DNA from: a virus
Direction: 5' to 3' (one strand)
Virus record (IMG/VR): IMGVR_UViG_3300013100_000018
Coordinates: 1-39,608 of that record
Length of the DNA stretch: 39,608 nt
Part shown: positions 24,645 through 30,148 of the stretch, in pieces
How the letters are laid out: every line of letters starts with the position of its first letter
Numbering within the stretch: position 1 is the stretch's first letter
Program-made: the position numbers and the translations under genes
The notes under the pieces: generated by a model
The model's database searches: none
What the model was told of the DNA's origin: nothing
The model's input: the letters and a program-made list of their open reading frames with translations, nothing else

Positions 24645-24714
24645 GGGCCGGTAGCTCAATTGGAACAGAGCGCACATTGAGAGGCAGACGGAGGTTCGAT
24701 TCCTCCCCGGTCCA
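24645..24714 (+). tRNA. tRNA-like sequence without a foldable anticodon arm
   Basis: Acceptor arms GGGCCGG (24645-24651) and CCGGTCC (24707-24713) pair with one G-U. TA, then a D arm GCTC/GAGC (24654-24657, 24668-24671), and a perfect T arm GGAGG-TTCGATT-CCTCC (24690-24706) follow, with A as discriminator and no encoded CCA. Only 18 bases lie between the D and T arms, where about 23 are normal, and no 5-bp anticodon stem forms from them. It is therefore a tRNA remnant or a tRNA-shaped RNA rather than an ordinary tRNA; no anticodon can be assigned. Confidence 0.65.
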
Positions 24715-24814: not shown

Positions 24815-26989
24815 GTGGTCCTCGTCCTCCCTAACTACAGGGGCAAGCCCACACAGGATCACTGGTTCTCCTACCCAGAAGAACTCGACAAGATGACCGA
24901 GTTCGCTGAGGCACACAAGACCAGCGACGTGTGGTACTCCCCGAACATTTTCAACAGCGACGACCGTAGCAAGTCGAACACGAAGATGGTTAGCGTAGCC
25001 GCAGCCGACGCGGATAGCTGCGACCCTAACAACTTCCGCGTGCAACCCACGCTGAGCATTGAGACAAGCCCCGGACACTGGCACGTCTACTGGGCATTCG
25101 ACCAGCCCTACGACCCAAACGAGGTGGCGAAGCTCAACCGCCGTATCGCACAGGTGCACAAGGGGCAGGGCTGTGACACGGCGTTCGCCAACGCCGCCAA
25201 GCTCATGCGCGTACCGGGAACCTCTAACAACAAACACCCCGGCGCTGTGGTGATCGTTGCTGACTTTGACGACGAAACCGAACACACGCCTGACAGCCTC
25301 ACTGAGCGCTACCCGGTATCGGAAGTGCCTGACGCTATCGACGTGGAAAACACCACCATGCCTGACGACATGGGTGCATACATCACGGCGAATCGTGGCT
25401 CCCTGCTGAGCGGATTGCCTAACAGCATGGGCCTCCGTGACATGCTGTTCGGCCGCTTCCACGAGGACAAGCGCAGTGACGTACGCTACAAGCTGCTGTG
25501 CGAACTGTACCGGCTGGGACTGGACGACTACGGTGTTATGGCCGTGGCGTGGGGCGCTCCCAGCAACAAGTACAACGGTGACGACCCGCGCGGCTACGCT
25601 GGTCTGTGGGCCGAGGCCATGAAAGCCAAGAAGGAAATCGAACTCGAACAGGAAGCTGACGAGTACGACAAGCCCATTGACGGCGTGTTCGAGGGAGAGA
25701 AAGGCGAGCGCGCTAAGAAGGCCGAGAATGTCTTAACAAACTTCCTCAGCGTTGCCGAGCAGGAAGAGATTCGCGGCAAGGTCAACTTCATTGATGAGTG
25801 GATCGCATGGGCCGGTACCAAGACGGACGCCCCACAGGAGTACCACCGGGCGGCAGCTATCACGCTGCTCTCTGCGGTCTACTCCGAGTTCGGGCATGCC
25901 ACGCCGAAGTTCGCTCCCAAGGGTCTGAAGCTCAACCTGTGGTTCATGGTGCTGGGGCGGTCCACCAAGGATCGCAAGTCAACCTCGCGCAGCTTCCTGA
26001 ACGACGCTCTGCGGGCTTTGAAGACCGACGACTACAACTACTCCATCGGTGACGACGTAACGCCGGGAGGCATCAGCCTAGCGCTGCACGACAGGGCAAA
26101 CAAGGCGACCGTCTACGACCGTGACGAGGTTCAGGGTCTGTTCAAGGAACTGCTGCACCAGTCCTACATGAGCGGTGGTCTGGAAGTCTTCACCAAGCTC
26201 TACGATGGTTGGTCGGGTGGACGTGTCCGTGCATCCGGCGAGAAGAAGATCATGGAGTCCGTGCCTGTCTCCTTCATCATGTTCATGATGGGTATTCTGA
26301 CGGAGACAGCGGACGTACTCACGATCACCAACTACCGCTCGGGCTTCCTCACCCGGTTCCTCTACGTGCTGGGCAAGCGGCCCGATGGGTACAAGGCACC
26401 GCCGATGGAGCAGACTTCTGAGGAGGAAGTCGAAGACGACAAGGTGTTCAATGGCCTTGTTAAGCATCTTGCGCTGAACCGGAACTTCTGGGAAATGCGT
26501 GGAAGCGACGGCAAGACCTATGCCCTCCGTGCGGAACCGGATGCGTGGGCGCGTTTGCAGGAGTTCGAAGCGGACGTAGCGGACAAGGCAGCGGAGTCAC
26601 CGTACGCGGAAATCATCGACACGACGAGCAGCCGTATGGTTATCAGCACTGTTAAGTTGTCGGCTCTGCTGGCAATGGACGAGCGTTCGCTGACCATTAA
26701 GAAAAGCCATGTCTTGCAGGCTATTGCCTATGCGGGTGAGTGGTTCGACAACGCTGTGACCGTGGCGAGCATGGTCAGCGAGTCCGAGTGGCAGCGTGAC
26801 GTGGACAAGCTGGAAGAGTTCATCGTCAGCAAGGGCGGTCGTATCGGTTACTCTGCCGCCTACCGCCAGTTCAAAGAGAAGCGACCGTTCGAGTTCGAGG
26901 AAATGCTGGGCGCACTGGAAGCGCGCGGGGTTCTCACCCGCATCCAGAACGGTTCCCGCTGGGTTCTGGAAGTGAGCTATGAAGACTAG
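24815..26989 (+). CDS. Primase-polymerase/helicase fusion protein
   Basis: A protein of at least 724 residues. The N-terminal part carries AEP primase-like motifs: AAADADSCD (about 63-71), SPGHWHVYW (about 85-93) and RVPGTSNNKHPG (about 132-143), the last typical of phage and plasmid prim-pol domains. The C-terminal half has GRSTKDRKSTS (about 384-394), a phosphate-binding loop of the DUF3987-like helicase group, and VYDRDEV as a likely Walker B. It should prime and unwind phage DNA. GTG 24815 is the first usual start, but coding-like sequence (KREFFKNIF) extends upstream to about 24761. Confidence 0.82.
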   Translation: MVLVLPNYRGKPTQDHWFSYPEELDKMTEFAEAHKTSDVWYSPNIFNSDDRSKSNTKMVSVAAADADSCDPNNFRVQPTLSIETSPGHWHVYWAFDQPYDPNEVAKLNRRIAQVHKGQGCDTAFANAAKLMRVPGTSNNKHPGAVVIVADFDDETEHTPDSLTERYPVSEVPDAIDVENTTMPDDMGAYITANRGSLLSGLPNSMGLRDMLFGRFHEDKRSDVRYKLLCELYRLGLDDYGVMAVAWGAPSNKYNGDDPRGYAGLWAEAMKAKKEIELEQEADEYDKPIDGVFEGEKGERAKKAENVLTNFLSVAEQEEIRGKVNFIDEWIAWAGTKTDAPQEYHRAAAITLLSAVYSEFGHATPKFAPKGLKLNLWFMVLGRSTKDRKSTSRSFLNDALRALKTDDYNYSIGDDVTPGGISLALHDRANKATVYDRDEVQGLFKELLHQSYMSGGLEVFTKLYDGWSGGRVRASGEKKIMESVPVSFIMFMMGILTETADVLTITNYRSGFLTRFLYVLGKRPDGYKAPPMEQTSEEEVEDDKVFNGLVKHLALNRNFWEMRGSDGKTYALRAEPDAWARLQEFEADVADKAAESPYAEIIDTTSSRMVISTVKLSALLAMDERSLTIKKSHVLQAIAYAGEWFDNAVTVASMVSESEWQRDVDKLEEFIVSKGGRIGYSAAYRQFKEKRPFEFEEMLGALEARGVLTRIQNGSRWVLEVSYED

Positions 26990-27350
26990 TAGCAAGTTGC
27001 AAGACGCCCTGTTTATCTACCAGCAGTACCAGCAGATGAACAAGAAGCACAGGAGGTCAGCCGTTGAAAGGCTGGCCTCCTACGGCTACGACGCGCATGA
27101 GATTAGCAAAATCACTGGTGTGAGTACGAACTACGCTGTGCGATTCACAAACAGGGGTGGAGGGTTCTACAAGTTCAACCCATCGACGTTAGACGCGCTG
27201 GTATTGCTGGCAGTACGATATGAAGATGATGAAACCGTGTCAGGGACGCTGGCACGGAGAATAGTCGAGTGGGGCACGGCAGTAGCTGAGATAGCTAGGC
27301 TGTGTGACATTCCGCTCGACGTGTTAAGGGAGGCAGTGCATAATGAGTAG
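26979..27350 (+). CDS. HTH-like protein (123 aa)
   Basis: A 123-residue basic protein. Residues about 27-55 (HRRSAVERLASYGYDAHEISKITGVSTNYAVRF in outline) read as a helix-turn-helix of the sigma-region-4 or resolvase kind, with a second helical repeat near the C terminus (VAEIARLCDIPLDVLREAV) that also looks like an HTH. It starts inside the primase gene and overlaps the next gene by 8 bases. It could regulate transcription or load at an origin. Confidence 0.7.
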   Translation: MKTSSKLQDALFIYQQYQQMNKKHRRSAVERLASYGYDAHEISKITGVSTNYAVRFTNRGGGFYKFNPSTLDALVLLAVRYEDDETVSGTLARRIVEWGTAVAEIARLCDIPLDVLREAVHNE

Positions 27351-27705
27351 AGTCGAGGATTTGCCAGAGAGGTGGAAAGGCGCGCTGTATATGGAGGACG
27401 TGATACTGGACGGTACCACTATTGAGGAGTTGGTGACCCAGATCAACTTCCTGCGCGGTAGCCTCTATGGACAAGCTATGCTGATTGACGCTGCCGAGGA
27501 GAAAGCTGTCGAGCTTGAAGAGCAGGTAGAACTTGCTCGTGACTACCAGCGTGAGATTGACGCCCGACTGGTGGACGGTCTGCCTCACTACGTTCGTATG
27601 GAGTCTTCCCCCGGTTACGTGGTCGGGGGTTATTCCATCCCCAACACAGAGACCAGCTACGTCTACGATGTGGACCCGGCGAAGGCGATCAGGGAGAGCA
27701 AGTAA
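27343..27705 (+). CDS. Hypothetical protein (120 aa) upstream of polymerase
   Basis: A 120-residue acidic protein. A central coiled coil (AAEEKAVELEEQVELARDYQ, about 50-69) is followed by a beta/Gly-rich C terminus. It shares one base with the start of the polymerase N-terminal gene (TAATG), so it is co-translated with it. Function unknown; a polymerase accessory role is possible from position alone. Confidence 0.7.
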   Translation: MSRVEDLPERWKGALYMEDVILDGTTIEELVTQINFLRGSLYGQAMLIDAAEEKAVELEEQVELARDYQREIDARLVDGLPHYVRMESSPGYVVGGYSIPNTETSYVYDVDPAKAIRESK

Positions 27706-29102
27706 TGCAGATCACAATTCCTGTGTACTCGGAGCAGGACTTGACCCCGCGTGCAATGGAAGTGATTCGCGCAATCGTGGACTCGTCGTTCCCCGAACAC
27801 ACTATTAAGTTTAAGGCGTCCATCTACGACTTCAACAACAAGGTACTCATCTTCGGCAAGCCACCGGTAGGTAAGATTGCGGGTCGTACGGAGTTCGTCT
27901 ACACCTACTCCATTGCTCAGATCATGTCGAAAGCTAACGCTGCTTCCGTGCTGGCAGCGGGGATCAGGCAGTTCATCAGCGAGCCTGACCCCATCCCGTT
28001 CGAGCGACCGCAGGGCTTCATGAATGTGGTCTCAGCCTTGTCAGCGTTCGACCCGAAACAACCCACCGCAATAGACATTGAGACAGACGGAAACCTTGGT
28101 AAGACACACACGCCGGAAGATGTTAACATCATCAGCGTGGCGTTCTATCAGCCCGGTCACGCGCCCGCCGTCATCAGGAATGACAGTGTTGACGGCACTA
28201 TGCTACCGATTGCCATGTGGCAGCGTACTCTGCTTGTCGATTATCTGCCCAAGTTCGAGTTCGGCATTTATCACAACGGCAAGTTCGATATTCGAATCAT
28301 GAACCGTGTGTTCGGGATCAAGCTTGTTAACTCTTTTGACACCATGCTCGCCCACCACGTACTCAACCACGCGGCGGGCGACCACAAGTTGAAGTCGCTT
28401 GCAAGGCGCTACCTTGGTGCGCCTGAGTGGGAGGCCGACCTTGGCAAGTACACCAAGGGCGGCGGTCACTACGAGTTAATCCCAGAGGAGAAGCTTGTCG
28501 AGTACAACGGGTGGGACGTGTACTGGACCTACAAGCTGTTCGAGTTCCTGTACCCGCAGATCGAAGCCGACGAGAACAACGTCAAGGCGTTCGCGTTCGA
28601 AATGGAGGCTGCTAACTTCCTTCTCGACGTGGAGAGCTACGGCATCCCGTTCAACAGGAAGTACGCAGAGGACTACGCTGCGGGTCTGGGAGCCAAGATG
28701 GAGTTCGAACTTGAAACGCTTAGGCTTACAACAGACATAGAAAAGTTCAACCCTAACAGCCCGAAGCAGGTCAAAGAGTGGCTAGACCGGATGGGTTACA
28801 TAGTCCCGTCTACCAATGCGGAATCTATAGCCCTTGCAAGGAAGACCGCAGAAGGGATAGATGATACAACCGTCGTCAAGTTCTGTGACGCGCTGTTGGC
28901 GTACCGCAAGGCCGCTAAGATCAAGGGAACCTACGCCGAAGGCTGGATGAGCAAGGAACGGAATGGACGAGTCCACGCCACCTACCTTGTGCATGGCACG
29001 AGTACGGGCCGACTCAGTTCCACTGGCCCTAACGCTCAGAACGTACCGCGAGACAAAGCAATCCGCAAGCTTGTTAAGACACACAAGGAGATTAACGCAT
29101 GA
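27705..29102 (+). CDS. Family A DNA polymerase, N-terminal piece (3'-5' exonuclease and thumb)
   Basis: A 465-residue protein. Exo I is IDIETDG (about 121-127), Exo II YHNGKFDIR (about 187-195) and Exo III YNGWDVYW (about 266-273), giving a complete proofreading exonuclease. The thumb region follows, then the template/primer-binding stretch STGRLSSTGPNAQNVPR (about 432-448). The gene then stops 16 residues after QNVP, just before motif A. The remaining polymerase motifs are in the gene at 29399. The pieces must assemble for a working enzyme. ATGA overlap links it to the next small gene. Confidence 0.92.
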   Translation: MQITIPVYSEQDLTPRAMEVIRAIVDSSFPEHTIKFKASIYDFNNKVLIFGKPPVGKIAGRTEFVYTYSIAQIMSKANAASVLAAGIRQFISEPDPIPFERPQGFMNVVSALSAFDPKQPTAIDIETDGNLGKTHTPEDVNIISVAFYQPGHAPAVIRNDSVDGTMLPIAMWQRTLLVDYLPKFEFGIYHNGKFDIRIMNRVFGIKLVNSFDTMLAHHVLNHAAGDHKLKSLARRYLGAPEWEADLGKYTKGGGHYELIPEEKLVEYNGWDVYWTYKLFEFLYPQIEADENNVKAFAFEMEAANFLLDVESYGIPFNRKYAEDYAAGLGAKMEFELETLRLTTDIEKFNPNSPKQVKEWLDRMGYIVPSTNAESIALARKTAEGIDDTTVVKFCDALLAYRKAAKIKGTYAEGWMSKERNGRVHATYLVHGTSTGRLSSTGPNAQNVPRDKAIRKLVKTHKEINA

Positions 29103-29179
29103 CCGATTCGTTCTGGACTTCCCAGCCTGAAGAAATGAAGGGCAGCAGCCCGAAGGTAGTGGAGGTGGAAGATGAGTGA
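29099..29179 (+). CDS. 26-residue ORF between polymerase pieces
   Basis: A 26-codon frame (MTDSFWTSQPEEM..., ending in VVEVEDE), starting in the ATGA of the polymerase N-terminal gene and overlapping the next start by 8 bases. CAAGGAG lies upstream. Perfect stop/start coupling on both sides argues that it is translated. The acidic tail is the only feature; it may be a linker peptide, a coupling relay or a small subunit. Confidence 0.5.
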   Translation: MTDSFWTSQPEEMKGSSPKVVEVEDE

Positions 29180-29402
29180 AGGCTCATGGGTCATGCGGTA
29201 CTCGACCCGGACCCTGCGCCGCTGGCTTGTTAAGGAATTAAAGCGGGAATGGAAGTGGAATCGCAGGATAGACAAGTATCAGGTTGATACCTTCTACTAC
29301 CGGGATCACCTGTCTAGGGCGCATAAGAAGGCTTCTGCCGCCGCAGACAACTATCGAGTCATCAGAGAAGAATTGCAACGGAGAGGAGACTACCTAATAT
29401 GA
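29172..29402 (+). CDS. Basic protein encoded inside the split polymerase locus (76 aa)
   Basis: A 76-residue, strongly basic, helical protein rich in Trp, Arg and Lys (TLRRWLVKELKREWKWNRR, about 13-31), with a second helix near the C terminus (AADNYRVIREELQRRGDYLI). It has no homing-endonuclease motif (no LAGLIDADG, GIY-YIG or HNH) and no intein signatures. GGAGG-like GGTGG lies upstream; the stop overlaps the start of the polymerase C-terminal gene (ATGA). The charge fits DNA or partner binding, so an accessory subunit is possible. Confidence 0.7.
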   Translation: MSEGSWVMRYSTRTLRRWLVKELKREWKWNRRIDKYQVDTFYYRDHLSRAHKKASAAADNYRVIREELQRRGDYLI

Positions 29403-30148
29403 GGAACACACTTATCAACTGCGACCTCTCGCAGGCTGAGTTGCGCGTCATGGCGCTCCTCAGCAATGACCCGTGGATGATCGCCGCCCTCCAAGAGGAT
29501 CAGGGTGACTTCTTCGACACGCATATGATGCCGGTGTGCTTCCCGTGGATCGAAATGGACTACGGCTCGGTAGAGGAGTACAAGGAACAGGAACCTGTCG
29601 AACACAAAGAGTCTCGCACGAAGGTCAAGGGCATCCAGTACGGGTTGGCCTTTGGCCGTCAGGCAGCGGCCATTGGAGCGGCCTTGGGGCTGTCCAAGCA
29701 AGAGGCTCAGGCGATCATCAACAATTACCTCGACACCGCCAGCGGGTTCCGCCAGTGGCGGGAGGACGTGATGGAGGCAGCGATCACCCCGAGCAAGCGT
29801 GACCTGCTCATCAACCCGTTCGGTCGCCGTTTCCAGAGTGAGATTATTACCTCAGGCAACTGGGCCGCTGTGCAGCGAGAAGCATTAAGTTTTCTGCCGC
29901 AGAGTACCAGCAGCGACATTTGCTTGGCGACAGGCATTCGTATCAACTCGACGTTGCAGGACGCCGGGTACCACATCTTCAACATCGTGCATGACGCCCT
30001 CATGATTGAGGGGCCAGAGAAAGGTGCTAGTGAGATTGGGCGTTTTGTGGCAACAGAGCTTCGGGCGACGGGTAAGATGGTGTTCGGTGACACCGTTCCG
30101 TTCCTTAGCGACTATTCGATTGGAGAATCATGGAGCGATCTATCGTAA
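29399..30148 (+). CDS. Family A DNA polymerase, C-terminal piece (palm and fingers)
   Basis: A 249-residue protein beginning MRNTLINCDLSQAELR, so motif A (Asp9-Leu-Ser-Gln...Glu-Leu-Arg) comes within ten residues of the start. Motif B is RTKVKGIQYGLAFGR (about 73-87) and motif C VHDALM (about 196-201). Motif C normally reads HDE; here the Glu is Ala. AGAGGAG is 9 bases upstream of the ATG, a strong site. Joined to the gene at 27705, the distance from QNVP to motif A is normal for family A polymerases, so no residues seem lost. Confidence 0.92.
   Translation: MRNTLINCDLSQAELRVMALLSNDPWMIAALQEDQGDFFDTHMMPVCFPWIEMDYGSVEEYKEQEPVEHKESRTKVKGIQYGLAFGRQAAAIGAALGLSKQEAQAIINNYLDTASGFRQWREDVMEAAITPSKRDLLINPFGRRFQSEIITSGNWAAVQREALSFLPQSTSSDICLATGIRINSTLQDAGYHIFNIVHDALMIEGPEKGASEIGRFVATELRATGKMVFGDTVPFLSDYSIGESWSDLS

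Follow-up and report, generated by a model that had tools for sequence, protein, structure and literature searches.

How does a virus come to encode one DNA polymerase in two genes, and what part, if any, do the small genes lying between them play in the enzyme? These questions are raised by the window, a 39,608-nucleotide stretch of viral DNA (IMG/VR record IMGVR_UViG_3300013100_000018) in which the exonuclease and polymerase regions of a family A DNA polymerase are divided between two open reading frames, with two further reading frames in the 296-nt gap (Table 1).

Two genes for one family A DNA polymerase

The N piece matches PF01612 (4.6e-16) and columns 11-145 of PF00476, as well as phrog_17 (7e-66) and the Klenow structure 1d9d (3.6e-20), and the C piece matches PF00476 columns 152-380 (5.8e-31), so that only about six columns of PF00476 are missing between the two. 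Each piece falls in phrog_17, annotated as DNA polymerase, and matches solved structures of Pol I. Modelled with AlphaFold2 (pLDDT 91.6), the C piece has the motif A strand at its start, beginning at residue 3, and a Foldseek search (E about 4e-14; query TM about 0.8) matches it to the polymerase domain of Bacillus Pol I (large fragment) and of Taq Pol I. The distance from the Q of QNVP to the motif A aspartate is 29 residues in the window, tails included, compared with 25 in the fused homologue L018 and 21 in the split relative L014. Exonuclease residues D124, E126, D195 and D271 are invariant among eight diverged sequences of the clade described below, as are R73, K77 and Y81 of motif B and H198 and D199 of motif C in the C piece; the motif A aspartate, read from the sequence, is D9 of the C piece, and motif A of the window is intact. 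The PF00476 and PF01612 matches, together with the exonuclease and polymerase catalytic motifs, place the protein in family A, and the open reading frames, coordinates, PF00476 coverage and catalytic residues agree in bearing out the first-pass annotation, which had described a DNA polymerase divided between two genes with little or nothing missing. We note also that motif C is HDA, not HDE, across the whole clade (29990-30010 in the window), and that a tyrosine (Y81 of the C piece) occupies the position of F762 in E. coli Pol I.

Table 1. Split polymerase, gap reading frames and upstream replication genes in the window
Feature	Coordinates	Strand	Shine-Dalgarno-like sequence	Description
Primase/helicase	24815-26989	+		Upstream replication gene
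Possible HTH DNA-binding protein	26979-27350	+		Upstream replication gene
Small ORF	27343-27705	+		Upstream of N piece
N piece of split family A DNA polymerase	27705-29102	+	AGGGAG	465 aa; PF01612, PF00476, phrog_17, Klenow 1d9d; 3'-5' exonuclease, thumb, TGRLSS and QNVP stretch, first palm strand (IRKLV), then a short tail
Split region	29085-29422	+		End of palm strand (N piece) to motif A strand (C piece)
Gap ORF 1	29099-29179	+	AAGGAG	26 aa, acidic (net -5); 4-nt ATGA overlap with N piece (29099-29102)
Gap ORF 2	29172-29402	+	GGAGG	76 aa, basic (net +9); 8-nt overlap ATGAGTGA with gap ORF 1 (29172-29179)
C piece	29399-30148	+	GGAGAGGAG	249 aa; motif A strand, motifs B and C, fingers, palm; 4-nt ATGA overlap with gap ORF 2 (29399-29402)

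The four cistrons had been described as linked throughout by ATGA stop/start overlaps, which is correct for two of the three junctions, the one between the two gap ORFs being of a different form. All four are preceded by a Shine-Dalgarno-like sequence, and because the C piece has one of its own it looks like a separately started protein. No homologue of the 26-aa ORF was found in our searches, and it is a candidate passenger or reinitiation relay. The 76-aa gene has a weak 26-residue match (38%, E 5e-5 in a single comparison) to a 74-aa gene at the same position in the gap of relative L001, beyond which no relative was seen in viral_contigs, in the records of six relatives or in phages (E 1). 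The upstream replication genes (24815-27705) have the same order as in Curtobacterium phage Yappy, a relative with a fused polymerase. A tRNA immediately 5' of the primase gene is reported by Rfam at 24645-24714 and not by ARAGORN. Eight relatives have a short tRNA, called as Leu, upstream of their replication genes, although a long variable arm is normal for tRNA-Leu.

A clade of relatives with the same break

When IMG/VR was searched with the two pieces individually and with profiles, a small set of contigs matched. We read eleven distinct ones, and in all eleven the break is at the same position; the split of the window is thus not a chance event. In a tree of the joined pieces, the window and these contigs form one clade (support 100/99) whose sister group comprises the continuous polymerases of Yappy, Stenotrophomonas phage Jojan60 and Arthrobacter Amigovirus; these nearest relatives also have a primase just upstream, but encode the polymerase in a single continuous gene. 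A pattern scan of bacterial genomes found no relatives. Judged from these sequences, the split is conserved and has a single origin within the clade, while the gap is variable in content and sometimes empty.

The gap ranges from 0 to about 970 nt. It is empty in L014, where stop and start share a 4-nt ATGA overlap (GGATGACC), and contains one gene in L006, L007, L008 and L012, two in the window, L003, L005 and L015, three in L004 and L016, and four in L001. Several gap families recur, always in the same order: alpha (about 90-100 aa), beta (about 70 aa, acidic), gamma (cysteine-rich), and delta and epsilon (both basic). Several relatives share the alpha and beta families in this order, and a conserved role, useful but separate, is thus possible for some gap genes; for one acidic beta gene, no homologue was found in phages. 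Within the trio L003-L005 the gap ORFs have pN below pS, and they evolve faster than the polymerase (pN 0.14-0.34 versus 0.12-0.17). The first-pass annotation had expected a three-part enzyme to show gap genes conserved along with the polymerase halves, and gap genes varying freely beside conserved halves if they were passengers. The relatives conform to the latter pattern, and since the same split occurs with an empty gap, the gap genes appear to be dispensable for the split enzyme; the 26-aa and 76-aa ORFs of the window are probably passengers as well.

Position of the break in the fold

In the predicted structure of the fused homologue L018 (pLDDT 90.4), residues 336-337 are followed by a short turn (residues 338-342) and then by the motif A strand (residues 343-350), and it is to this turn that the split region of the window maps. 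The L014 pieces end and begin at its two sides, with only about four turn residues absent, and the tails in the window add a few residues there. We suggest, from the model, that the break is tolerated because it lies in this short palm turn before the motif A strand; with the break in a turn, no secondary-structure element is cut in either half, and the palm sheet could re-form.

A second split lineage

The first-pass annotation knew of no described polymerase with this arrangement, but one was published in 2023: the OM43 phages MEP401 and MEP402 have a split DNA polymerase (PMC10580990) with an exonuclease and N-terminal PF00476 gene, a C-terminal PF00476 gene and a small ORF between them. 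The MEP401 polymerase is split at the same turn (the N piece ending in QNFDGEIKTLFLSRYGE before its stop, the C piece containing MILNADAKALEW), with a 77-aa gene between the pieces, and its authors considered an intron as the cause of the split (PMC10580990). In Alcaligenes phage QDWS535, a member of the same lineage, the two polymerase genes overlap by one base and no gene separates them. Both pieces are present in 72 of 80 further IMG/VR loci of the MEP401 lineage, with gaps of -17 to 459 nt, the gap being empty or overlapping in L188, L197 and L199.

The window shares the general arrangement of this lineage, with two genes, a break between QN and motif A, and small ORFs or nothing between; the MEP401 type differs in its gap genes and in its origin. 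The two split groups form separate clades, with continuous HMO-2011-type polymerases as sisters, and a tree constrained to join them is worse by 135 log units (AU p=5e-68), which rejects a single origin. The window is therefore arranged like MEP401 without sharing its origin, and phylogeny indicates that the split arose independently in the two lineages. The window polymerase is thus a conserved two-gene enzyme of a kind described once before and with an independent origin of its own. On at least two occasions in phages a break has arisen in this turn and become fixed, which suggests that family A polymerases have a natural point of fission here, one useful for building split enzymes.

Interrupted polymerases in other phages

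The neighbourhood of motif A had been noted as a target of inteins and introns, and examples in other phages confirm this. In L037 (949-4044) a continuous polymerase carries an intein-like insertion directly ahead of motif A. The polymerase gamma of Microcystis phage Mic1 (ORF85/86) is, like that of the window, a family A enzyme in two ORFs broken at motif A, but the break lies inside the motif (ADVDS / QELW) with intron-like features between, and the interruption has been reported as an intron of 298 bp (PMC7156551). In the SPO1-type phage Goe26 a family A polymerase is again interrupted in the vicinity of QN and motif A, but here upstream of QN (TGRLSSENP / ALNAQNFP) and by a stretch holding an HNH-like ORF. 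In L086 (2724-3375) the polymerase is interrupted between motifs A and B by an intron-like stretch with an HNH-like ORF, and L076 and L081 each carry two family A polymerase genes in tandem.

We do not assign the window to either interrupted type. An Rfam search of 28900-29700 with E values up to 5 gave a chance snoRNA match only, and scans of the window and the eleven relatives at gathering thresholds found no intron family, only tRNAs and one GOLLD RNA (210 bits), which lies within the tRNA array of L008 (8805-9214). An intron-interrupted polymerase of the SPO1 or Mic1 type was rejected because Rfam reports no intron and the gap is filled with ORFs, variable or empty; a split-intein polymerase was rejected because beyond the palm strand the N piece continues for no more than a short tail, and the C piece begins eight residues ahead of the motif A aspartate.

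A probable two-chain polymerase and its alternatives

We consider it highly probable that the window encodes a non-covalent two-chain polymerase with a fixed point of fission and passenger genes in the gap. The replicative family A polymerase would be translated as two polypeptides that fold together non-covalently into an active enzyme, with the chain broken in the palm turn between the strand after QNVP and the motif A aspartate strand. A single break in the ancestor of the clade, probably an overlapping stop and start within the turn of the form kept in L014, would have left two translationally coupled cistrons, and because the break lies between genes, small coupled ORFs such as the 26-aa and 76-aa genes could come and go without harm to the enzyme. 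An old insertion later domesticated, as proposed in the first-pass annotation, is possible; we favor fission first and entry of the small genes later, since zero-gap forms exist and traces of an intron or intein are absent. The gap at a fixed break would then be open to the arrival and loss of small genes, and the intron suspected for MEP401 gives way to a testable two-chain model.

It had also been proposed that the 76-aa protein bridges the two halves, and with or without the 26-aa product it could be a third subunit: it is small and basic, its gene is coupled by stop/start overlaps to both neighbors, and a basic protein likewise precedes the C piece in L001 (the weak match noted above), with basic ORFs also in L015 and L016. 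However, the split occurs with no gap gene at all in L014 and, in the second lineage, in QDWS535, L188, L197 and L199; L007 and L008 have an acidic gene as the sole occupant of the gap; and the 76-aa gene has no relative in viral contigs or phages beyond L001. We thus regard a bridging subunit as very unlikely. Another explanation is that the gap is a self-splicing intron whose removal joins the two frames, for which 296 nt is long enough, introns being known near this region in Goe26 and Mic1. This we find extremely improbable, given the lack of an Rfam intron match in the window or its eleven relatives, the range of gap lengths within one clade, including members in which there is nothing to splice, and gaps full of ORFs led by Shine-Dalgarno-like sequences and, in the L003-L005 trio, under constraint; an undetected, unusual splicing system in the window itself is a remote possibility. 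The split gene might instead be a decaying pseudogene in a phage that replicates by other means, and the phage could use another polymerase; a stop or frameshift does interrupt motif A in three relatives. The invariant catalytic residues, the strong Shine-Dalgarno sites, a dN/dS of about 0.04-0.15 in the L003-L005 trio (with dS near saturation) and the fixation of the split in two old clades nevertheless make decay highly improbable.

Insertions in motif A of three relatives

The interruptions of motif A in relatives, which the window lacks, are inserts of 6 nt in L003 (6842-6905) and L005 (6827-6890), in the context GAG CTT TAG CTT/CTC CG, and of 7 nt in L001 (4979-5020), in the context GAG CTT CGA TTAT CGA GTC. 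Each introduces a stop or frameshift between matching codons (CTT-TAG-CTT, CTT-TAG-CTC and CGA-TTAT-CGA), the same layout as in laboratory stop-hops; a 2016 review (PMC5009743) knows of no natural example of an in-frame stop hop. The sequence downstream of the inserts is under purifying selection in the L003-L005 trio, and no other conserved sense-strand gene is visibly broken in the three contigs. Conceivably the inserts are bypassed in nature by short translational hops, so that the catalytic motif is restored and the small C-piece gene of the broken PolA tolerates discontinuous decoding, but we think this unlikely: matching flanks are also expected from simple duplication, and there are only three cases, from assembled contigs, with the insert absent from L004 of the same subclade. 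The inserts are also candidate scars of a homing-endonuclease cut. Amber recoding was rejected because TAG is an ordinary stop in the contigs of the TAG-bearing relatives, and re-initiation after the TAG because the next ATG has no Shine-Dalgarno-like sequence. ARAGORN listed no suppressor tRNA in the loci scanned, and z-scores of -0.37, -0.47 and 0.15 at the inserts give no support for a stimulatory RNA structure. In ctOsX528 (L116, 2489-2710), an extra A in GCAAAAAGC breaks the frame of the C piece just after the motif A aspartate, and may be a slippage site or an assembly error.
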